Shown: one piece after another, positions 10,065 to 20,529 of the stretch
How the letters are laid out: each line of letters begins with the position of its first letter
Numbering within the stretch: the first letter of the stretch is position 1
DNA from: Thermomicrobiales bacterium
GTDB taxonomy: Bacteria > Chloroflexota > Chloroflexia > Thermomicrobiales > UBA6265
NCBI GenBank assembly: GCA_020432165.1
Contig: JAGQGU010000032.1
Span: 1-38,798, forward strand
Length of the DNA stretch: 38,798 bases
Direction: 5' to 3'
The notes under the pieces: model-generated
Database searches by the model: none
What the model saw: the letters and a program-made list of their open reading frames with translations, nothing else
What the model was told of the DNA's origin: nothing
Position numbers and translations under genes: made by a program

Positions 10065-10652
10065 TTACTTCCCTGGATTTGCGGTTGTGCCTGGTTTCTC
10101 TAGCGGGATGCCTTGAGCACAGAGCGGGCATGTATCCGCTGGCCAGGCCTCAAAATCGACCGCAGCGATTGGCACAAGGGGAACATCATCGAAGCTGGTC
10201 TTTCCGCCGCTACGATCAACCAGCACACCCACAGCCACAACTTCCACGGGATGGACCTCCAGGGCCGCCAGTGTCTCTCGCACCGATCCACCGGTGGTGA
10301 GAATATCGTCTACTACCAGCACCCGCGTGCCAGGCGCGAAGGTCGTACCACGGCGAATTTCACGACCGCTAGCGCCATCGGAGGCACGTTCGGCATAGGC
10401 GGAAGCAACACCGAGTTGACGCGCCGTTTCAAAGGCGAGAATGATGCCGCCGGTGGTGGGTCCGACAACGACATCTATGCGCTCGTCACGAAAGCGGTCA
10501 GCGAAGAAGGTGCAGGCGGCGCTGGTCGCAGCGGGATCGCGCAGGAGATTGAACTTCTCCACATAAACCTCGCCGTGCTTACCACTGGCATAGAGAAAAT
10601 GCCCGTGTTTGATGGCACCGGTTGCAGCGAGCTGGGTGAGAAGATCGGTCAT
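10065..10652 (-). CDS. pyrE: Orotate phosphoribosyltransferase
   Basis: A 195-residue enzyme that joins orotate to PRPP to make OMP, the fifth step of UMP synthesis. The PRPP-binding motif VLVVDDILTTGGS lies near residue 120, and the VGPTTGGIILA and YAERA segments fit PyrE. The ATG at 10652 has AAAGGA upstream and overlaps the pyrD stop by one base (TAATG), so a longer reading into pyrD is unlikely. It is the last gene of the pyr operon. pyrF, which would use its product, is not in the window. Confidence 0.95.
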   Translation of the reverse strand: MTDLLTQLAATGAIKHGHFLYASGKHGEVYVEKFNLLRDPAATSAACTFFADRFRDERIDVVVGPTTGGIILAFETARQLGVASAYAERASDGASGREIRRGTTFAPGTRVLVVDDILTTGGSVRETLAALEVHPVEVVAVGVLVDRSGGKTSFDDVPLVPIAAVDFEAWPADTCPLCAQGIPLEKPGTTANPGK

Positions 10653-11617
10653 TATGAGTCCTTTCCCGCACGAAATTGCGGATTCGCGACGCCAACAATA
10701 TCCATAATCGAAGCGCATCCCTGCGCATCCAACCAGGTCTGCAAGTCATCAATCAGTTGAATCGGAGCAACTGGGTGGCTGAAGCAGACGGTGCCCATCT
10801 CAATCGCCGTCGCTCCAGCCATGAAGAACTCGAGCGCATCGTTCAATCCAAAAATGCCACCGAGACCAATGATGGGAATATCGACCGCCTGAGCAACCTG
10901 ATAAACCTGGCGCACGGCAACCGGCTTCACTGCCGGTCCGCTGAGTCCACCGGTTGTATTGGCAATGCGACTCCTGCGGGTGACAGGATCAATGCTCATG
11001 CCGACAAGCGTATTGATGAGGCTGATGGCATCGACACCCTGCTCGGCCACGGCAGCAGCGATCTCTGCGATATCGACCGCACCGGGACTGAGCTTGATGA
11101 TAACCGGCAGTGTCGTCGCCTCGCGGACAGCCCGGGAGACATCCGCGCTCATGCGAGCATCCCAGCCGAAGCAGAAGCCGCCAGCGTGGATATTCGGGCA
11201 ACTGATATTCACTTCCAAAGCGGCGACACCGGGAACATCGTCCAGTTTGCGCGCCATTTCGGCAAACTCCTCCACCGTATCGGCCGAGAAATTGACAATG
11301 GCGGGAACATCCCAATGTTCCCAGATCGGTGGATACTTCTTGATAAAGGCATCGATACCAGGATTCTGCAGACCGATCGCGTTGAGCATGCCAGCCGGGG
11401 TTTCGGTGATACGCGGCATTGGATTACCAGCACGTGGCTGGGAGGTGATGCCCTTGCTGCAGAATGCGCCCAGCCTCTGCACATCGATAACGTGACTATA
11501 TTCCTGACCATAGCCAAAACAGCCAGAGGCGGGAATAACCGGATTGCGCAAGATCAATTCGCGTGGATTATGTGGCGCGAGATCGACTTGCAAGCTGGCG
11601 CGAGTCTGTGTGCTCAT
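10652..11617 (-). CDS. pyrD: Dihydroorotate dehydrogenase, class 1B catalytic subunit
   Basis: A 321-residue FMN enzyme that oxidises dihydroorotate to orotate in the cytoplasm. The catalytic Cys is C140 in VNISCPNIHAGG, which marks class 1 enzymes, and the adjacent pyrK identifies class 1B, whose electron acceptor is NAD+. The C-terminal FMN phosphate region reads IIGLGGIFGLNDALEFFMAG. The ATG at 11617 overlaps the pyrK stop as ATGA; a GTG at 11623 is less likely. The stop overlaps the pyrE start by one base. Confidence 0.95.
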   Translation of the reverse strand: MSTQTRASLQVDLAPHNPRELILRNPVIPASGCFGYGQEYSHVIDVQRLGAFCSKGITSQPRAGNPMPRITETPAGMLNAIGLQNPGIDAFIKKYPPIWEHWDVPAIVNFSADTVEEFAEMARKLDDVPGVAALEVNISCPNIHAGGFCFGWDARMSADVSRAVREATTLPVIIKLSPGAVDIAEIAAAVAEQGVDAISLINTLVGMSIDPVTRRSRIANTTGGLSGPAVKPVAVRQVYQVAQAVDIPIIGLGGIFGLNDALEFFMAGATAIEMGTVCFSHPVAPIQLIDDLQTWLDAQGCASIMDIVGVANPQFRAGKDS

Positions 11618-12432
11618 CCCCACACCACACTTTCCATATCGAAAACGGGGCCATCGACACAGCTCGCCTTCATACCCTTCTTCGTCTCAACCACACACCC
11701 GAGGCAAGCACCGACGCCACAGGCCATGGTGCGCTCGACACTGATCTGCACTTGCGGTCCTTTACCGAAGCGATGCTGCAGAATCACATTCCGTAACGCC
11801 GCCATCATCGGAGTCGGGCCGCAGGTGAAGATCTGATCGGCCCAGGTGAGGTAGTTTGCGGCGAGTTCGGTGACAAAGCCCTTGTGTCCGGCGCTGCCAT
11901 CCTCGGTCGCAACGATGTACTCAACGGCATGGGGAAGCTCGCTGGCATCCAGCAACTGATCTTCACGACGGGCACCGAGCAGATAGACCACGCTCTTACC
12001 CTGGGCCACAGCTTGCTCACTCAGCATCTTCAATGGCGCCGCACCAACACCACCAGCAACCATCAAGAGATGGGAGCTTCTCGGGGCGACCTCGTAATGG
12101 TTTCCGAGTATCCCAAGCACATTCAGCGATTGCCCCGGCTGTTGATCGACAATCCATTGCCCTCCCCTGCCATACGGCCGAATCAGGAGGGTCATCGTGT
12201 TGGCGGCGGCATCAATACCGTAGATCGAATAGGGACGCCGTAGCAAGGGATCAAATGAGCCAGCACCGCTCGGTAAAACATTCACAAAGTGACCCGGCTC
12301 GATATGTTGAGCGAGTCCTTCGGGCATCGTGAAGGTAACGAGATATGAATCGCCCATGATGGTGCGATTCGCCGTGATCTCGCCTGTCCATTCCCGCACC
12401 GGTGCCGATGCCTTGCCTAGCACTGCTGCCAT
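11614..12432 (-). CDS. pyrK: Dihydroorotate dehydrogenase electron transfer subunit
   Basis: A 272-residue flavo-iron-sulfur protein that passes electrons from PyrD to NAD+. The FAD-binding RPYS motif is at residues 66-69, the NAD-binding GGVGAAP is at 127-133, and CGPTPMM begins at 204. The [2Fe-2S] ligands C238, C243, C246 and C258 form the usual C-x4-C-x2-C-x11-C pattern. The ATG at 12432 has a GGGAGGGG ribosome site. It overlaps pyrD by four bases. The 148 bases upstream, before carB ends, contain a perfect palindrome and a 41-base tandem repeat, which is unusual inside this otherwise compact operon. Confidence 0.96.
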   Translation of the reverse strand: MAAVLGKASAPVREWTGEITANRTIMGDSYLVTFTMPEGLAQHIEPGHFVNVLPSGAGSFDPLLRRPYSIYGIDAAANTMTLLIRPYGRGGQWIVDQQPGQSLNVLGILGNHYEVAPRSSHLLMVAGGVGAAPLKMLSEQAVAQGKSVVYLLGARREDQLLDASELPHAVEYIVATEDGSAGHKGFVTELAANYLTWADQIFTCGPTPMMAALRNVILQHRFGKGPQVQISVERTMACGVGACLGCVVETKKGMKASCVDGPVFDMESVVWG

Positions 12433-12469: not shown

Positions 12470-12581
12470 GGGTGGACACCCTGCGGGGTCCACCCCTACG
12501 TGATGATACCGGGCGGATACCTTCCGGGGTCCACCCCCATGTGATGATACCGGGTGGACACCCTGCGGGGTCCACCCCTAC
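12470..12581. repeat. 41-base tandem hairpin repeat within the pyr operon
   Basis: Two full 41-base units (12470-12510 and 12511-12551; 35 of 41 bases identical by eye) are followed by a 30-base partial unit (12552-12581) identical to the start of unit one. Each unit holds a GGGTGGAC/GTCCACCC-type stem with a CCTGCGGG core, weakened in unit two. The partial unit runs up to the carB stop codon. There are too few units and no unique spacers, so it is not a CRISPR; a REP-like palindromic family is more likely. Confidence 0.85.
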
Positions 12582-15500
12582 TAGTACCCGAACATCTCCT
12601 GGCGATACATCTGGATGGGCTCAACGCTATACATGGCAGCAGCCTTCTCCATCGCATCGACAACCGTACGCGCGGTGTCCAGGCTGGTAATACATGGTAT
12701 ACCGCGCTCCACCGCTGCACGACGAATACTGAGCCCGTCCAGGATGTCCTTGTTCGCCTGACCCGGAGTATTGATGACGCCATCGACGGTGCCATCCAGG
12801 ATCACATCCAACATATCCGGCGAACCGCGGCCGATTCGCTTGGTGGTGAACTGCACCGGCATACCGGCGCGTTCAATCATGGCAGCGGTGCCCTCCGTGG
12901 CATAAAGCTTGTAGCCCATCCGCGCCAGACTGGTGATCATCCCGAGAGCATCGCTTTTATCTTCGTCGGCAAGCGAGATCAGGATCGAACCCTTCGGAGG
13001 CAACGCCAGACCCGATGCGATTAGCGCCTTGAAGAAGGCCGAGCTAAAGCTACGATCGATGCCCATCACCTCACCGGTCGAACGCATCTCCGGTCCGAGG
13101 TGGACCTCAACGCCGCGCAGTTTGGCCATACTGAAGACGGGGGCTTTCACTGCTGTCAGCGGTTGCCGCGGCCAGAGTCCGCCCTCATACCCCTGCTCCT
13201 TAAGCGAGATGCCCAGACCAATGTTTGTGGCAAGCCTCACCATCGGTACGCCGGTGGCTTTGCTCAGGAAAGGCACCGTGCGGCTTGAACGCGGGTTCAC
13301 CTCCAACACATAGAGATGTCCGGCGTGGATGACGTACTGGATATTGATGAGCCCCCGCGCGTTCAACCCGAGTGCGATCCGCGTGGTGTAATCGATAATC
13401 GTCTCCACCTCAGCCGGATAGAGATTAATCGCCGGGTAGACTGCGAAGCTATCGCCGCTATGCACACCGGCACGCTCGATATGCTCCATGATTCCGGGAA
13501 TAAGCACCCGCTCGCCATCACAGATGGCATCGACTTCGACTTCCTTACCCATGAGGTACTTGTCGACGAGGATCGGGTGATCGGCAGTCATATTCGCATG
13601 ACGATGGATGTAGTTCTGTAAATCGGAAGCGCTGTGCACGACTTCCATGGCACGACCACCAAGCACATAGCTCGGTCGCACCAACACCGGATAGCCAACG
13701 CGTCGAGCTACAGCTTCCGCATCGGCAAGACTGGTTACCGCGGCACCTTCCGGCTGCGGGATATCAAGCGAGCGCAAGAAATCGCCAAAGCGGTCACGAT
13801 CCTCGGCAAGATCGATGGAATCGAGACTGGATCCGAGGATCGGTGCGCCAGCGGCGGTTAGTGGTGCGGCGAGATTGATCGCGGTCTGACCACCAAACTG
13901 CACAATCATCGGCGGATAGTTGTCCGCCTCACCATCGGCTTCGTGGCGCATGATCTCCTCTACCGATTCGGCATCGAGCGGCTCGAAATAGAGGCGATCG
14001 GAGGCATCAAAGTCGGTGGAAACCGTCTCCGGATTGGAGTTGACCATGATCGACTTCAGACCAGCACTCTGCAGCGCGCGCGCCGCCTGCACCGAGCAAT
14101 AGTCGAACTCGATACCCTGGCCGATACGAATCGGACCAGACCCAACCACGACTGCGCGCATACCACCGAGCGGAGTCGCTTCATCCTCCTGCTCGTAGGT
14201 GCTGTAGAAATACGGTGTCCGCGCCTCAAACTCGCCAGCGCAGGTATCAACCATCTTGTAGACCGGTGCCATACCAAGTTCGCGTCGTTGCGCAGTCACG
14301 CTCTTGGCGCTCTGGTTGGAGAGCGTAGCGATCTGGCGATCGCTAAAGCCCATCTGCTTGGCGCGCCAGAGTGTATCCGGCTGAACATCACCGGTAGCCA
14401 GTGTCTGCTCAATCTCGACGATGTTGTGGAATTTCTCCAGGAACCAGAGATCAATCGCGCTGAGTGCGTGGATCTCCTCAATGGTGACGCCGCGTCGCAA
14501 CGCAGCCATCACGGCCCACAGTCGCAGATCCGTGGGATGGGAGATGAAGTGTTTGATCGTCTCGAGATTATCGCCCCACTCCGGATCTTCCCAAAGCAGA
14601 TCCTTGGCGTTCGTTTCCAGCGACCGCACAGCCTTCTGCATCGATCCCTCGAAGGTGCGATCAATAGCCATGACTTCGCCAGTGGCTTTCATCTGGGTGG
14701 TGACCGTACGGTCGGCCTTCGGGAACTTGTCGAATGGCCAGCGCGGAATCTTGGTAACCACGTAGTCGAGCGCAGGTTCAAAGGCGGCAGTTGTCTTACC
14801 CGTCACCACATTCGTCAACTCGCTCAGACGCTTGCCCGCAGCGATCTTGGCGGAGATACGCGCGATCGGGTAGCCGGTCGCCTTGGAAGCAAGTGCCGAG
14901 CTGCGGCTCACACGCGGATTGACCTCGATCACACCATACTCGAACGAGTTTGGATTGAGCGCATACTGCACATTGCAGCCACCCTCAATACCGAGCGCGC
15001 GGATGATGTTCAACGCCGATGTGCGCAGCATCTGGTACTCGTAGTCCGAGAGTGTCTGGCTCGGTGCCACAACGATACTATCGCCGGTGTGCACGCCCAT
15101 CGGATCGATATTTTCCATATTGCAGATGGTGATGCAGGTATCGGCACCATCGCGCATGACCTCGTACTCGATCTCTTTCCAACCGAGCAGGCTGCGCTCC
15201 AACAACACCTGGCGAATGGGACTGGCGTTGAGACCGCTGGTGACGATCTTGTCTAACTCTTCCATCGTATACGCCACACCGCCGCCGGTACCGCCAAGCG
15301 TGTATGCCGGACGGATAACCATCGGCAACGGTACGATCTCGGCGAAAGCACGCGCTTCCTCGACGCTGTGGATGATCTGCCCCTCGATTGCCGGTTCGCC
15401 GATACGCCCCAGCAAATCCTTGAAGAGCTCGCGATCCTCCGCCATCTGGATGGCCGATAGCGGTGTACCCAGCAGGCGCACACCATAGTGATCGAGGATG

Positions 15501-15820
15501 CCCAGCTCACTTACCTTCACGGCAAGATTGAGTCCGGTCTGCCCACCGATCGTAGCCAGCATGCCCTCGGGTCGTTCCCGCTGAATTACGCGACGGATAA
15601 CGTCTGGTGTCAGCGGTTCGATATAGACGGCATCAGCGATATCTTCGTCCGTCATGATCGTGGCGGGGTTGGAGTTGACGAGAATGGTACGGATGCCTTC
15701 CTCGCGCAAACTCTGGCACGCCTGCGTGCCGGCGTAATCGAACTCCGCCGCCTGCCCGATCACAATCGGACCAGAGCCGATGACCAATACACTTTCTGGC
15801 TTCTTTGTCGTATCAGGCAC
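12581..15820 (-). CDS. carB: Carbamoyl phosphate synthase large subunit
   Basis: A 1079-residue subunit that makes carbamoyl phosphate from bicarbonate, ATP and ammonia passed from CarA, for pyrimidine and arginine synthesis. Two homologous ATP-grasp halves are visible, each opening with a GSGPIxIGQ..EFDY motif and containing an EVNPR segment. A C-terminal MGS-like allosteric domain ends the protein (INTPGQA region). The size is close to E. coli CarB, 1073. I prefer the GTG at 15820: GAGGGAG lies nine bases upstream, and the start overlaps the carA stop by eight bases. A TTG at 15829 would abut that ribosome site. Confidence 0.97.
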   Translation of the reverse strand: MPDTTKKPESVLVIGSGPIVIGQAAEFDYAGTQACQSLREEGIRTILVNSNPATIMTDEDIADAVYIEPLTPDVIRRVIQRERPEGMLATIGGQTGLNLAVKVSELGILDHYGVRLLGTPLSAIQMAEDRELFKDLLGRIGEPAIEGQIIHSVEEARAFAEIVPLPMVIRPAYTLGGTGGGVAYTMEELDKIVTSGLNASPIRQVLLERSLLGWKEIEYEVMRDGADTCITICNMENIDPMGVHTGDSIVVAPSQTLSDYEYQMLRTSALNIIRALGIEGGCNVQYALNPNSFEYGVIEVNPRVSRSSALASKATGYPIARISAKIAAGKRLSELTNVVTGKTTAAFEPALDYVVTKIPRWPFDKFPKADRTVTTQMKATGEVMAIDRTFEGSMQKAVRSLETNAKDLLWEDPEWGDNLETIKHFISHPTDLRLWAVMAALRRGVTIEEIHALSAIDLWFLEKFHNIVEIEQTLATGDVQPDTLWRAKQMGFSDRQIATLSNQSAKSVTAQRRELGMAPVYKMVDTCAGEFEARTPYFYSTYEQEDEATPLGGMRAVVVGSGPIRIGQGIEFDYCSVQAARALQSAGLKSIMVNSNPETVSTDFDASDRLYFEPLDAESVEEIMRHEADGEADNYPPMIVQFGGQTAINLAAPLTAAGAPILGSSLDSIDLAEDRDRFGDFLRSLDIPQPEGAAVTSLADAEAVARRVGYPVLVRPSYVLGGRAMEVVHSASDLQNYIHRHANMTADHPILVDKYLMGKEVEVDAICDGERVLIPGIMEHIERAGVHSGDSFAVYPAINLYPAEVETIIDYTTRIALGLNARGLINIQYVIHAGHLYVLEVNPRSSRTVPFLSKATGVPMVRLATNIGLGISLKEQGYEGGLWPRQPLTAVKAPVFSMAKLRGVEVHLGPEMRSTGEVMGIDRSFSSAFFKALIASGLALPPKGSILISLADEDKSDALGMITSLARMGYKLYATEGTAAMIERAGMPVQFTTKRIGRGSPDMLDVILDGTVDGVINTPGQANKDILDGLSIRRAAVERGIPCITSLDTARTVVDAMEKAAAMYSVEPIQMYRQEMFGY

Positions 15821-16958
15821 CAGCGCCAACTCCCTCGGTGGTTTTTCCAGAAATCAAGGCAACAAATTCGTCGAAGAGCACACTATTATCGGCCGGACCA
15901 GGGGCGGATTCCGGGTGGAACTGCACACTCAACACCGGAATCTCGGCATGAGTCAATCCCTCCACCGAGCCATCGTTCAGATTGCGTAGCGCTACTTTCC
16001 AGCCATCGGCTTCCGGAATCGAATCGCTCGTGACCTGGAAGCTGTGGTTCTGCGCGGTCATGGTAACGCGACCGTTGCGATGATCGATGACCGGTTGATT
16101 ACCACCGCGGTGACCAAACTTCAGCTTGGTCGTTTCCGCTCCGATTGCCCGCGCGAGCAATTGATGCCCCAGGCAAATGCCGAAGTATGGTCGTCGGTCC
16201 TCAATCAAATGGCGGACGACATCCAGGCCATCATCGAGATTGGCGGGATCGCCAGGACCCGGCGAGACAATGACACCATCGGGATCGATCTCTGCAATGC
16301 GGCTGTACGGTGTGCCATAGGGCAACACCCGCACCCGGGCGCCGCGGCGCGTGAGTGAATCGATAATGTTCTGCTTCACTCCGCAATCGAGTACAACCAC
16401 GGTCGGGCCATCGTTCTCATCACCGAAGGTGACCTCTTCCATGCCCTGCACTTCGCCGACCACATCGCGGTCACCTGGCAACGGTGCATTCTGGGCACGA
16501 GCGATGATCTCTTCATCAGAGAGATTGTTAGCGTTATGGATCAGCACTGCGCGGAGATCGCCAACGGAACGGATGTGGCGAGTAAGCGCGCGAGTATCGA
16601 TGCCCGCGATACCGGGAACACCCGCGTTAGCCAGATAGTCGTGAATAGTGCCACTACTGCGCCAATTACTCGGGAAGTCAGCCGCCTCGCGCACGATCAG
16701 GCCAGCAATCCATGGCTGTCGACTCTGATCGTCGTCGTGATTGACCCCGTAGTTGCCGATCAGCGGATAGGTCATGCAGACGATCTGTCCGCGGAAGCTG
16801 GGATCGGTACAGACCTCCTGATACCCGGTCATTGAGGTAGTAAAAACCACCTCGCCAGCACCCTCGGTATCGGCACCAAAACCGGTTCCCCGAAAGATTG
16901 TGCCGTCGGCGAGCGCGAGAACGGCATCCCAGGCTGGTTGATATTGCTTACTCGGCAC
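15813..16958 (-). CDS. carA: Carbamoyl phosphate synthase small subunit
   Basis: A 381-residue glutaminase subunit that releases ammonia from glutamine for CarB. The N-terminal domain starts at the ALADGTIFRG segment. The class I amidotransferase domain has the nucleophile Cys in YFGICLGHQLLARAIG and the His/Glu pair in VQFHPESAPGP. I favour a GTG start at 16958: GGAGAGG lies about nine bases before it, and it overlaps pyrC by only 11 bases. The ATG at 16976 has no good ribosome site. The end overlaps carB. Both car genes therefore probably use GTG starts within coupled overlaps. Confidence 0.95.
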   Translation of the reverse strand: MPSKQYQPAWDAVLALADGTIFRGTGFGADTEGAGEVVFTTSMTGYQEVCTDPSFRGQIVCMTYPLIGNYGVNHDDDQSRQPWIAGLIVREAADFPSNWRSSGTIHDYLANAGVPGIAGIDTRALTRHIRSVGDLRAVLIHNANNLSDEEIIARAQNAPLPGDRDVVGEVQGMEEVTFGDENDGPTVVVLDCGVKQNIIDSLTRRGARVRVLPYGTPYSRIAEIDPDGVIVSPGPGDPANLDDGLDVVRHLIEDRRPYFGICLGHQLLARAIGAETTKLKFGHRGGNQPVIDHRNGRVTMTAQNHSFQVTSDSIPEADGWKVALRNLNDGSVEGLTHAEIPVLSVQFHPESAPGPADNSVLFDEFVALISGKTTEGVGAGA

Positions 16959-18267
16959 GATGCTGTACCTCTCCATCCACAATCGTCATTACCGCACGGC
17001 CGCGTAGTGTGCGACCAAGCAATGCGGTGTTCTTGCTCTTCGTCTGCAGCGACTCGGGAGTCACCAACCATTCCTGCTCCGGAGCGAAGACAGTCACATT
17101 GGCCACCGCACCCTCGGTGAGTGTTGGTGCCTCAATCCGAAGAATCTTTGCTGGCTCAGTCGTCCAACGCAGCACCAGATCGTTCACTGAAAGGTGTCCG
17201 GCCCGCACCAGCGCATAGGTTAGCGGGAAGGCGAACTCGAGCCCGCTCATACCCATCGCCGCTTTGGTGTAGTCAGCAGGCTTGTCGCTCTCGGCATGCG
17301 GGGCGTGGTCGGTGCCGAAACAATCGAACCAACCATCCTGCAACGCCTTCAAGAGCTTCTGCGTATCCGAAACCGGACGCAGTGGCGGATTCACCTTGGT
17401 GTTCGGATCGAGCGGTGCTGCCATCGCCACCACTGGTTCTATTGTATTGTGCAATTCGCGACTTCCGGCCACCCATTCATCGCTCATCACCAGGTGATGC
17501 GGCATAACCTCCGCCGTGACGTGCACACCGCGCTCACGATACTGCTGAATGATCTCGATGCCGCGCCCCGTACTGACATGGCAGACATGGAGCCAGCCAC
17601 CAGTGAGTTCCGTGAGCATACAATCGCGCGCGATGATGATCTCCTCGGCGGCCGACGGGATTCCTTCGACACCAAGCGTCCGTGAAACCTCGCCCTCATT
17701 CATTGCACCGTGAGCGATTGCCTTATCCTCGCAATGCACGATGACAGGGCGCCCAAGGCGGGCACTCGCTTCCAGACAGCGGCGCATGATCGCGCTATCC
17801 GGTGTGGAATCACCATCGTCGCTCCAACCGATAGCCCCGGCTTCGATCACGGCGTCGTAGTCGACATCCATCTTGCCTTCGCGACCGCGCGTGATGGTCG
17901 CAATCGGATAGACGCGGCAGTGGCCGTTGGCGCGGACATCGTCCAGTAGCGCGCCAATCACCTCGGGCGAATCGAGCGTTGGCTTCGTGTTTGGCATGCA
18001 CGCTACGGCCATAAAACCACCAGCGGCGGCGGCGGCAGTTCCGGTCTGGACGGTTTCCTTGTAATCCAGCCCCGGTTGGCGGAGATGCACATGTACATCA
18101 ATCCAGGCCGGCGTGATGATGCATTCTGCGGCGTCGATCACCTCAACGTCAGCAGGCAGACTGGCGGTATCTACAATCCGACCATCACGAATGGCGAGAT
18201 CGCGTACCTCGTCGATATCCGCGCCTGGGTCAACCAAACGTCCATTTCTGATCAGCAAAGTAGTCAT
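16948..18267 (-). CDS. pyrC: Dihydroorotase
   Basis: A 439-residue amidohydrolase that cyclises carbamoyl aspartate to dihydroorotate, the third step of pyrimidine synthesis. The zinc-binding HVHLRQPG starts at residue 59, later ligands lie in IVHCED and HVCHVSTGRG, and the catalytic Asp is in FGTDHAPHA. The ATG at 18267 is chosen because GGGAGAAGG precedes it. It is the first gene of the pyr operon in this window. pyrB and pyrR, which often sit upstream, are not here; the divergent endonuclease gene begins about 170 bases away. Confidence 0.96.
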   Translation of the reverse strand: MTTLLIRNGRLVDPGADIDEVRDLAIRDGRIVDTASLPADVEVIDAAECIITPAWIDVHVHLRQPGLDYKETVQTGTAAAAAGGFMAVACMPNTKPTLDSPEVIGALLDDVRANGHCRVYPIATITRGREGKMDVDYDAVIEAGAIGWSDDGDSTPDSAIMRRCLEASARLGRPVIVHCEDKAIAHGAMNEGEVSRTLGVEGIPSAAEEIIIARDCMLTELTGGWLHVCHVSTGRGIEIIQQYRERGVHVTAEVMPHHLVMSDEWVAGSRELHNTIEPVVAMAAPLDPNTKVNPPLRPVSDTQKLLKALQDGWFDCFGTDHAPHAESDKPADYTKAAMGMSGLEFAFPLTYALVRAGHLSVNDLVLRWTTEPAKILRIEAPTLTEGAVANVTVFAPEQEWLVTPESLQTKSKNTALLGRTLRGRAVMTIVDGEVQHRAE

Positions 18268-18310
18268 CGTCCTTCTCCCTGGTAGACGTTCAGTGCAGAC
18301 ACGTGTCCAC

Positions 18311-18348
18311 AAAAAGAAAGCCCCGGAACCGTGAAAACGGTTCGAGGC
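18311..18348 (-). terminator. Attenuator-like terminator in the pyr operon leader
   Basis: Read on the minus strand, a 12-pair stem (GCCTCGAACCGT against ACGGTTCCGGGGC, one bulged C and one G-T pair) with a TTTC loop is followed by TTTCTTTTT. This is an intrinsic terminator only 44 bases before the pyrC start. No minus-strand gene lies just upstream, so it most likely controls read-through into pyrC rather than ending another gene. A GAGAGG segment about 55 bases upstream (near 18409-18402) recalls the PyrR RNA loop, but the match is incomplete. Confidence 0.75.
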
Positions 18349-18437
18349 CGGCAATTCTGCAGTAGAGTTGTTGGGTACTTAGGTGGCATCCGGTGGAGCG
18401 ATCCTCTCGGCATTCGGACAAACTAAAGAATACTACC

Positions 18438-19136
18438 ATGCGTGACAGTGATCTGCATCCGACAGATGAAGAACAGGAGAAGTTCGATGAGATCGAGCGG
18501 CTGCTTGACGCAACCTACGGTCCGCGCATATTGCGCGCGAACGGCGATCCTGTCAGCGAACTGGTCGGCACCATCCTCTCTCAGAATACCAGCGATGTGA
18601 ACACCGCTCGCACCTTTGCCAGTCTGCGTGAAGAGTTCCCGAGTTGGGAGGATGTGATTGAGGCGGACACCGCCGATGTCCGCGATGCTATTCGCATGGG
18701 TGGACTAAGCAATATCAAGGCACCGCGGATTCAAAAGGTGCTTAAGGCGATCCTGGATGAATGCGGAGCACTGGATATCTCATTTCTGCAATCAATGGAG
18801 CCAGCTGAGGCCCAGGCGTGGCTGACGAACCTGGACGGAATTGGGCCGAAGACTGCCGCGTGCGTGCTGCTCTTCAGTCTCGGCATGCCCGTTATGCCGG
18901 TAGACACCCACGTTGGTCGGGTGATGACCAGGCTCGGCGTAGTCCCTGATCGCACAAGCACACTCCGCAAAGAGCGGATTATTGAATCCTTAATCGGAGA
19001 CGACGCCCACAGGATGTATGCTGTTCATGTGGAAACGATCACCCACGGGCGGCAGATCTGCCGCGCCCAGAAACCCCGCTGCGAGATTTGCCCGTTGCAA
19101 TCAGTATGTACGTATTATCAGGAACGCATTGCATGA
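18438..19136 (+). CDS. nth: Endonuclease III-type DNA glycosylase/AP lyase
   Basis: A 232-residue HhH-GPD base-excision repair enzyme. The helix-hairpin-helix LDGIGPKTA carries the catalytic Lys (K138), and the conserved Asp is D156 in MPVDTHVG. The C-terminal [4Fe-4S] ligands C208, C215, C218 and C224 give the classical C-x6-C-x2-C-x5-C spacing. The ATG at 18438 is used; a GTG at 18393 would add an atypical 15 residues, and neither start has a strong ribosome site. The stop overlaps the next gene start as ATGA. It could favour oxidised pyrimidines or other lesions; specificity is not visible. Confidence 0.92.
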   Translation: MRDSDLHPTDEEQEKFDEIERLLDATYGPRILRANGDPVSELVGTILSQNTSDVNTARTFASLREEFPSWEDVIEADTADVRDAIRMGGLSNIKAPRIQKVLKAILDECGALDISFLQSMEPAEAQAWLTNLDGIGPKTAACVLLFSLGMPVMPVDTHVGRVMTRLGVVPDRTSTLRKERIIESLIGDDAHRMYAVHVETITHGRQICRAQKPRCEICPLQSVCTYYQERIA

Positions 19137-19846
19137 TTCAGTTTGATTCCCCGTCTCTTCATCTCGTTCATCCCTCCGGCAGTGAAACCGAGCTCTTCTT
19201 CGTCCGTCATGGCCAAACATCAGCGAATGTCCAACGTCTGTATGCGGGCAGCACAGATGTACCCCTGGACGATATGGGGCGCTATCAGGCAAGCAGAGTC
19301 GCCGAACGATTCCGCGATATCGCTATCGACGCGATTGTGAGTAGTCCCCTGCAACGCGCGCACTACACGGCTCAGCAGATCGGGTTGGTGACGGGTCACG
19401 TGCCAGTGCTTATGACGGGTATTCAGGAGATGCACTTTGGTGACGCTGAAATGCTGACTCTTGACGAGGTCAATGTGAAGTGGCCGCGACTCATGGAGCA
19501 AGAGACCAACCTTGGTCTGACGGAGTTCCGCTGGCCCAATGGCGAAAGCGATATCGAGTTCACAGCTCGCGTTGTGGATTCCATGAACTCAGTTATGCGC
19601 GATTATCCGAATCAACGAGTGGCAGTCGTCTGCCATGGAGGTGTGATCGCCCAGGTGCTGAACTATCTGAACAATGGTGACCGAGGAGGCAATATGCAGT
19701 ACAGCATCGCGAACTGCAGCATCACCCACCTGCATGTATCTTCGCGCGAAACCATCATTCACTACTGGAACGATCATTCGCACCTGGAGTATGCGCTCGG
19801 GTCAATTGATATAGAAGACGACATCGTCGAGGAAGCAGCCTCATGA
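19133..19846 (+). CDS. Histidine phosphatase family protein, copy 1
   Basis: A 237-residue phosphoglycerate mutase-like phosphatase. The phospho-accepting motif FFVRHGQT holds R25 and H26. R75 (SPLQRA), E99 (QEMHFGD) and H168 (VCHGG) complete the active site. Known relatives include CobC, broad-specificity phosphatases and fructose-2,6-bisphosphatase-like enzymes, so the substrate is open. It overlaps nth and the next gene by four bases each (ATGA), which indicates translational coupling. It is closely related to the following gene: 42 of the first 50 residues are identical by eye. It has a longer, more acidic C-terminus ending in DIEDDIVEEAAS. Confidence 0.9.
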   Translation: MIQFDSPSLHLVHPSGSETELFFVRHGQTSANVQRLYAGSTDVPLDDMGRYQASRVAERFRDIAIDAIVSSPLQRAHYTAQQIGLVTGHVPVLMTGIQEMHFGDAEMLTLDEVNVKWPRLMEQETNLGLTEFRWPNGESDIEFTARVVDSMNSVMRDYPNQRVAVVCHGGVIAQVLNYLNNGDRGGNMQYSIANCSITHLHVSSRETIIHYWNDHSHLEYALGSIDIEDDIVEEAAS

Positions 19847-20529
19847 TTCAGTTCAACTCGCCGTCACTTCACCTTGTTCACCCCACCGGTGGTGAAACCG
19901 AGCTCTTCTTTGTCCGCCACGGTCAGACATCTGCAAACGTCCTGAATCAGTTCGCGGGGAGCACCGATGTACCACTGGACGATCTCGGTCGCCGCCAGGC
20001 TGGCCGCGTCGCCGAGCGCTTCCGCGATATCCCGATCGATGCCATTTTTGCGAGTCCTCTCCAGCGCGCGTTCTATACCGCGCAGCAGATTGGCATGATC
20101 ACCGGCCATGAACCGATACCAATGGCAAGCCTCCAGGAGATGCATTTTGGCGACGCCGAGATGTTAACCATGTCCGAGATCCGGTCCAAATGGCCGACTC
20201 TGCTGGAAGATCAACCCGATGGAGGAGCCTACGACTTTCGCTGGCCGAATGGCGAAAGTGATTCGGAGCTTATCGCGCGAGTGTTATCGTCGATCGAGTC
20301 TGTCTCGCGAGACTACCCGCAGCAACGCGTCGCGATGGTTTGCCACGGAGGTGTTATTTCCAGGCTGCTCAATCACCTTCGTGCAGGAGAACGATCGGAA
20401 TTTCTGCAAATCAGCATTTCCAACTGCAGCATTACCCATCTGAGCGTATCTAGCTCGCACACCACAGTCCACTACTGGAATGACCATGCTCATCTGGACG
20501 AAGTGCTTGGCCCTCTGGTGGCGGAATAG
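19843..20529 (+). CDS. Histidine phosphatase family protein, copy 2
   Basis: A 228-residue paralogue of the preceding protein. The same catalytic set is present: RHGQT at 25-29, SPLQRA, QEMHFGDAE and VCHGG. Conservation extends to the ends, including HYWNDH near the C-terminus. Both copies look intact, so this is a tandem duplication with two probable functional enzymes, not a decayed pair. The start overlaps copy 1 by four bases. The stop is followed at once by the AGGAGG ribosome site of the metallo-hydrolase gene. Whether the two copies have different substrates or form a heteromer cannot be told. Confidence 0.9.
   Translation: MIQFNSPSLHLVHPTGGETELFFVRHGQTSANVLNQFAGSTDVPLDDLGRRQAGRVAERFRDIPIDAIFASPLQRAFYTAQQIGMITGHEPIPMASLQEMHFGDAEMLTMSEIRSKWPTLLEDQPDGGAYDFRWPNGESDSELIARVLSSIESVSRDYPQQRVAMVCHGGVISRLLNHLRAGERSEFLQISISNCSITHLSVSSSHTTVHYWNDHAHLDEVLGPLVAE

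Follow-up and report, generated by a model that had tools for sequence, protein, structure and literature searches.

The window—the whole stretch of DNA analysed, 38,798 nt in length—is contained in a 3.2-Mb Thermomicrobiales genome (G000; 98.3% complete, 105 contigs) and carries on its minus strand a six-gene pyrimidine operon with the order pyrC-carA-carB-pyrK-pyrD-pyrE. The gene upstream of pyrC is divergently oriented, on the plus strand, and encodes an Nth-like DNA glycosylase (18438). A search for phage DNA gave no match. The operon genes and the elements of the leader preceding them are as follows:

10065–10652, minus strand: pyrE (TIGR01367, above cut-off)
10652–11623, minus strand: pyrD (NF005574, above cut-off)
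11614–12432, minus strand: pyrK, dihydroorotate dehydrogenase electron-transfer subunit (best NCBIfam match, below the curated cut-off)
12581–15829, minus strand: open reading frame that we take to be carB, from its sequence rather than from a profile scan
15813–16970, minus strand: carA (TIGR01368, above cut-off)
16948–18267, minus strand: pyrC, dihydroorotase, first gene of the operon (NCBIfam TIGR00857, above cut-off)
upstream of the pyrC start, minus strand: GGGAGAAGG, the Shine-Dalgarno sequence of pyrC itself
18264–18389, minus strand: putative leader open reading frame of 41 codons, MPPKYPTTLLQNCRPRTVFTVPGLSFCGHVSALNVYQGEGR (from translation; equivalent frames in relatives)
18311–18319, minus strand: T-tract of the terminator, TTTCTTTTT (from sequence)
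18319–18349, minus strand: terminator hairpin (covariation across genera)
18403–18408, minus strand: putative Shine-Dalgarno sequence of the leader frame, GAGAGG, within CCGAGAGGAU (a GAGG-like Shine-Dalgarno precedes the leader start in most relatives)
18419–18423, minus strand: predicted transcript start GUUUG, with +1 the G at 18423 (a purine 7 nt after the –10 element)
18430–18435, minus strand: –10 element TAGTAT (position conserved; TATACT in most relatives)

The preliminary description of this DNA had noted a strong intrinsic terminator between divergent genes, directed toward pyrC, and had interpreted it as part of an attenuator-like leader of the pyr operon. The terminator was confirmed, and its interpretation as an attenuator is well supported by conservation and covariation. 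On the minus strand, positions 18349–18311 read GGCCUCGAACCG-UUUU-CACGGUUCCGGGGC-UUUCUUUUU and fold at –19 kcal/mol (z = –5.1), a value reached by none of 200 shuffled sequences; the element points at pyrC, whose start (18267) is 44 nt further downstream. Folding the leader as a whole gave no advantage over shuffled sequences (z 0.1), so the fold signal is local. A simple promoter and terminator scan of the window picked up neither element, the terminator probably having been missed owing to a bulge in its stem.

Relatives were gathered via PyrC and comprise Thermomicrobiales and Chloroflexi assemblies. In essentially every member of the order whose upstream DNA could be read (final set, n = 44), a terminator occupies the equivalent site, recognizable as a GC-rich hairpin followed by a T-run between a TATACT-like box and pyrC; some of these hairpins were missed by our first automatic rule, yet are plain in the sequence. 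Moreover, among 14 hairpins from different genera, both sides had changed in eight of the 12 stem pairs, and the covariation score exceeded that of all 500 shuffles. In other families of the class, outside the order, no such leader or attenuator was seen before pyrC, which there usually follows pyrB; the feature thus belongs to the order. Similarly, we looked for an attenuator before the pyrB-like gene of G000 (contig 44) and saw none. Judged from these comparative data, the pyr leader is a real, order-wide attenuator.

What the preliminary description had not seen is that the terminator is embedded in a reading frame. The frame opens at an ATG (18389), with a long gap of 13 nt to its Shine-Dalgarno sequence, runs through the whole terminator and closes at a TGA (18266–18264) that overlaps the pyrC ATG (ATGA). 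Comparable frames were found in relatives, and in about 20 of 24 leaders that are separate from pyrC the stop shares bases with the pyrC start, in the form ATGA, GTGA, TTGA or TGATG. Among the exceptions, the stop falls one base before the pyrC start (L014), just inside pyrC (L026, L030) or directly after the T-run (L015). With starts picked by eye, 23 of these 24 frames are free of stops before the T-run, whereas the two alternative frames contain 21 and 5 stops; the single stop-bearing leader (L031) reflects a wrong choice of start, its next GTG giving an open, overlapping frame. In a further 12 genomes, in which the leader is fused to pyrC (see below), the leader frame has no stops compared with 4 and 13 in the other two.

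As hand-picked starts could mislead, we also applied a mechanical rule to the 44 genomes and to shuffles that retained the hairpin and the pyrC start. The rule returned a leader frame in 34 of the 44 genomes, with 7.1 expected from the shuffles; tallied by genus—the one count in which kinship is accounted for—all members were positive in 17 of 25 genera versus 3.5 expected. For the window taken alone, the chance under this rule is 0.03.

Within genera, leader length is constant or differs by 3 nt, and only 3-nt indels occur. In the nearest relatives the leader has the same start and its first residues are similar (MPTQYESTILQ.. in L014), and in four peptides of genus g6 nearly every residue before the hairpin differs. 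Codon substitutions within genera revealed no purifying selection on the peptide, no regulatory codon run is shared among the leader peptides, and a search of the leader peptide against Pfam at E 1 returned no match. The leader peptide is not conserved; the open frame alone is. A constant length combined with freely changing residues fits a mechanism that needs only the passage of a ribosome and argues against amino-acid or peptide sensing. The lack of purifying selection is what one would expect if only translation matters, but it also removes one line of proof. Separately, one family f4 leader (L037, in G034) apparently contains two chained mini-frames: MTDSPPGTMQR stops on the GTG of the second, which reads through the terminator to end on the pyrC start.

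The sequence itself shows a conserved promoter, a terminator, a frame that stays open across it, an overlap of stop and start, and a lack of PyrR. Taken together, these point to a transcription-translation coupled attenuator, in which the intrinsic terminator, set within a short leader frame that is translated, would work like that of E. coli pyrBI; we assign this reading a probability of about 0.72. Provided that terminator and leader frame function in the cell, RNA polymerase would start near 18423 and make first the ribosome-binding site (18408–18403) and then the terminator. A ribosome on the leader frame following close behind the polymerase would cover the left arm of the hairpin, and the operon would be read; were the polymerase to run ahead, the hairpin would form and transcription would stop before pyrC. 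The pyrimidine nucleotide level would presumably set polymerase speed, such that low UTP or CTP leads to read-through. Since the start codon of pyrC is also where the leader frame stops, translation of pyrC should be coupled to that of the leader as well.

In E. coli, a leader gene of 135 bp contains the pyrBI attenuator, which stays unsuppressed when UTP is at normal levels (PMC4824070), coupling of transcription and translation at pyrL prevents hairpin formation (PMC5021804), and pyrBI additionally has a reiterative start (PMC6245113). In both systems a short leader gene ahead of the first pyr gene holds an intrinsic terminator, whose hairpin a ribosome is thought to keep from forming (PMC4824070, PMC5021804). 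In contrast to pyrBI, the terminator described here precedes pyrC and a six-gene operon, and its leader either reaches into the pyrC start codon or forms one frame with pyrC. No peptide homology is detectable and the phylum is a different one; on the best reading of the sequences the attenuators work alike and evolved separately, and homology is no part of our proposal. A further difference counts against a UTP pause like that of pyrBI: there is no U-rich stretch before the hairpin, the U content between leader start and hairpin being 16.7%, and hence no evident UTP-sensitive pause region of the pyrBI kind. The polymerase could slow when CTP is low or when nucleotides in general run short.

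Another way to use the same architecture would be for the leader to sense translation capacity or initiation, through a structure or protein at the leader ribosome-binding site, and not nucleotide-dependent polymerase speed. In line with this, a weak stem (GUCCG...CGGAU) surrounds the Shine-Dalgarno sequence and start codon in the window, similar pairing is visible in L014, and family f3 leaders carry a GUACGGAC mini-hairpin near the Shine-Dalgarno sequence. However, the fold of the window's 5′ leader is no more stable than those of shuffled sequences (z +1.2) and the 5′ elements vary from family to family; we consider sensing of this kind unlikely.

The preliminary description had raised the idea of a PyrR-type leader, in which CCGAGAGGAU (18410–18401, on the strand of the terminator) recalls the PyrR-binding loop and could partly pair with the left arm of the terminator. 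Under such a scheme, PyrR with UMP would bind CCGAGAGGAU and either favour the terminator, as in Bacillus, or block leader translation, as proposed for Thermus ZO5. The segment does resemble what we take to be the PyrR loop, and a relative from the same genus (G002) carries both PyrR and UGCGAGAGGCU in its leader. Yet CCGAGAGGAU is best read as the Shine-Dalgarno sequence of the leader frame: only its GAGG recurs in relatives, the surrounding bases not being conserved, a pattern to be expected of a Shine-Dalgarno sequence. Its pairing with the left arm has a predicted probability of 0.00 in the window, and this putative antiterminator is erratic in relatives. Nor did a search with the PyrR model find a match in G000, a 98%-complete genome whose eight phosphoribosyltransferase hits are all assigned otherwise (hpt, xanthine-type, pyrE, prs-type, apt, prs-type, purF, prs-type). 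The Rfam family RF00515 was found in none of 61 genomes (G000 and 60 relatives), nor in the window even at E 10, although the B. subtilis, Thermus composti and Lactococcus lactis controls were positive; a general Rfam scan of window and leader returned nothing.

Across the order, PyrR scored above cut-off in just 11 of the 61 genomes, whereas the leader is universal, and at the PyrR loci inspected the neighbours are an M20 hydrolase or other genes, with no pyr genes among them. At six such loci (L066 in G002, L067 in G027, and L009–L012 in G056, G054, G044 and G047), PyrR mostly adjoins an M20-family amidohydrolase gene, L009 having another gene instead. This suggests a salvage or catabolic role for PyrR in the order rather than regulation of the pyr operon. 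The leader thus shares with the Bacillus attenuator (RF00515) a terminator ahead of the pyr operon but has neither PyrR, an RF00515 match nor an antiterminator in the window, and control by PyrR is very improbable; the preliminary description's caveat that ligand or sensor might differ proved well placed. A further parallel is the Thermus ZO5 pyr leader, for which Van de Casteele in 1997 reportedly proposed a translating ribosome in place of an antiterminator; there, unlike here, PyrR is present, pyrR being the first gene of the cluster. Finally, an amino-acid attenuator (for arginine, for example) or a nascent-peptide sensor would account for a translated leader upstream of an operon whose carAB also supplies arginine synthesis, but with peptides that diverge freely even within a genus we give it next to no credence.

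With regard to the coupled attenuator favoured here, the start site may add a second layer of control in the window's genus. The promoter of relatives mostly reads TTGAC-17/18-TATACT, its –35 element being weak in this genus. Three or more U residues after +1, a mark of UTP-sensitive starts, are found at the predicted starts of the window and genus g1, not in most other genera; UUU at +2 to +4 is confined to g1 (3/3), g11 (2/2) and g2 (1/1). E. coli carAB P1, whose transcript begins with GUUUGC, is under the control of UTP-dependent slippage (PMC6245113). The likeness to this reiterative transcription lies in the GUUUG start sequence, which here, unlike in E. coli, is a predicted start confined to the window's genus and two near genera. 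The GUUUG start in g1 therefore suggests UTP-sensitive slippage as a lead to follow; initiation of this kind would add pyrimidine control to that exerted at the terminator.

In family f3, the arrangement goes one step further: in 12 genomes (genera g22, g29, g30 and g32) the leader frame is the pyrC frame. Seven of these 12 have no ATG, GTG or TTG between the terminator and the conserved PyrC start, which means that the terminator must there lie inside the pyrC coding sequence. In G058, the frame following the preceding stop offers just one start that could be used: a GTG located 87 nt upstream and ahead of the hairpin, next to which stands GGTGAGG. A regulator-free pyr attenuator of separate origin in Chloroflexota, with a protein-coding terminator that in f3 forms part of the PyrC N-terminus (e.g., GPLDSARIQRPF), such that the enzyme's own translation would decide operon transcription, is in our estimate an even bet. 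Nine f3 leaders (L038, L040–L042, L048–L050, L054 and L061) share GUACGGAC some 20 nt ahead of the leader start; the bases on either side of it are complementary (GCGU..ACGC, GUGU..ACAC) and could form an RNA mini-hairpin or belong to a DNA operator.

Our literature search found no paper on attenuation in Thermomicrobiales. If the proposed mechanism is correct, coupling-based attenuation, best known from enteric pyr genes, would be found again in a distant phylum and in an order largely without PyrR, and the leader would provide an easy means of finding out whether, in Chloroflexota, ribosomes follow close behind the polymerase. Family f3 would then harbor a working terminator inside an enzyme coding sequence, where gene finders may misplace the start.

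The surroundings of the operon offered some further observations. In the region 18393–18438 (plus strand), the start of the divergent Nth-like gene lies at most about 15 nt from where the pyr transcript is predicted to begin. The promoter of the Nth-like gene should hence fall inside the pyr leader, and antisense overlap of both 5′ ends is expected. Downstream of it (19088–20529, plus strand) are two tandem, closely similar genes of the histidine-phosphatase type (LFFVRHGQTSAN...). Elsewhere in G000, contig 82 (54459–55881; L068, L070) carries a tandem pair of adjacent carbamoyltransferase-domain genes, in addition to the pyrB-like gene on contig 44.
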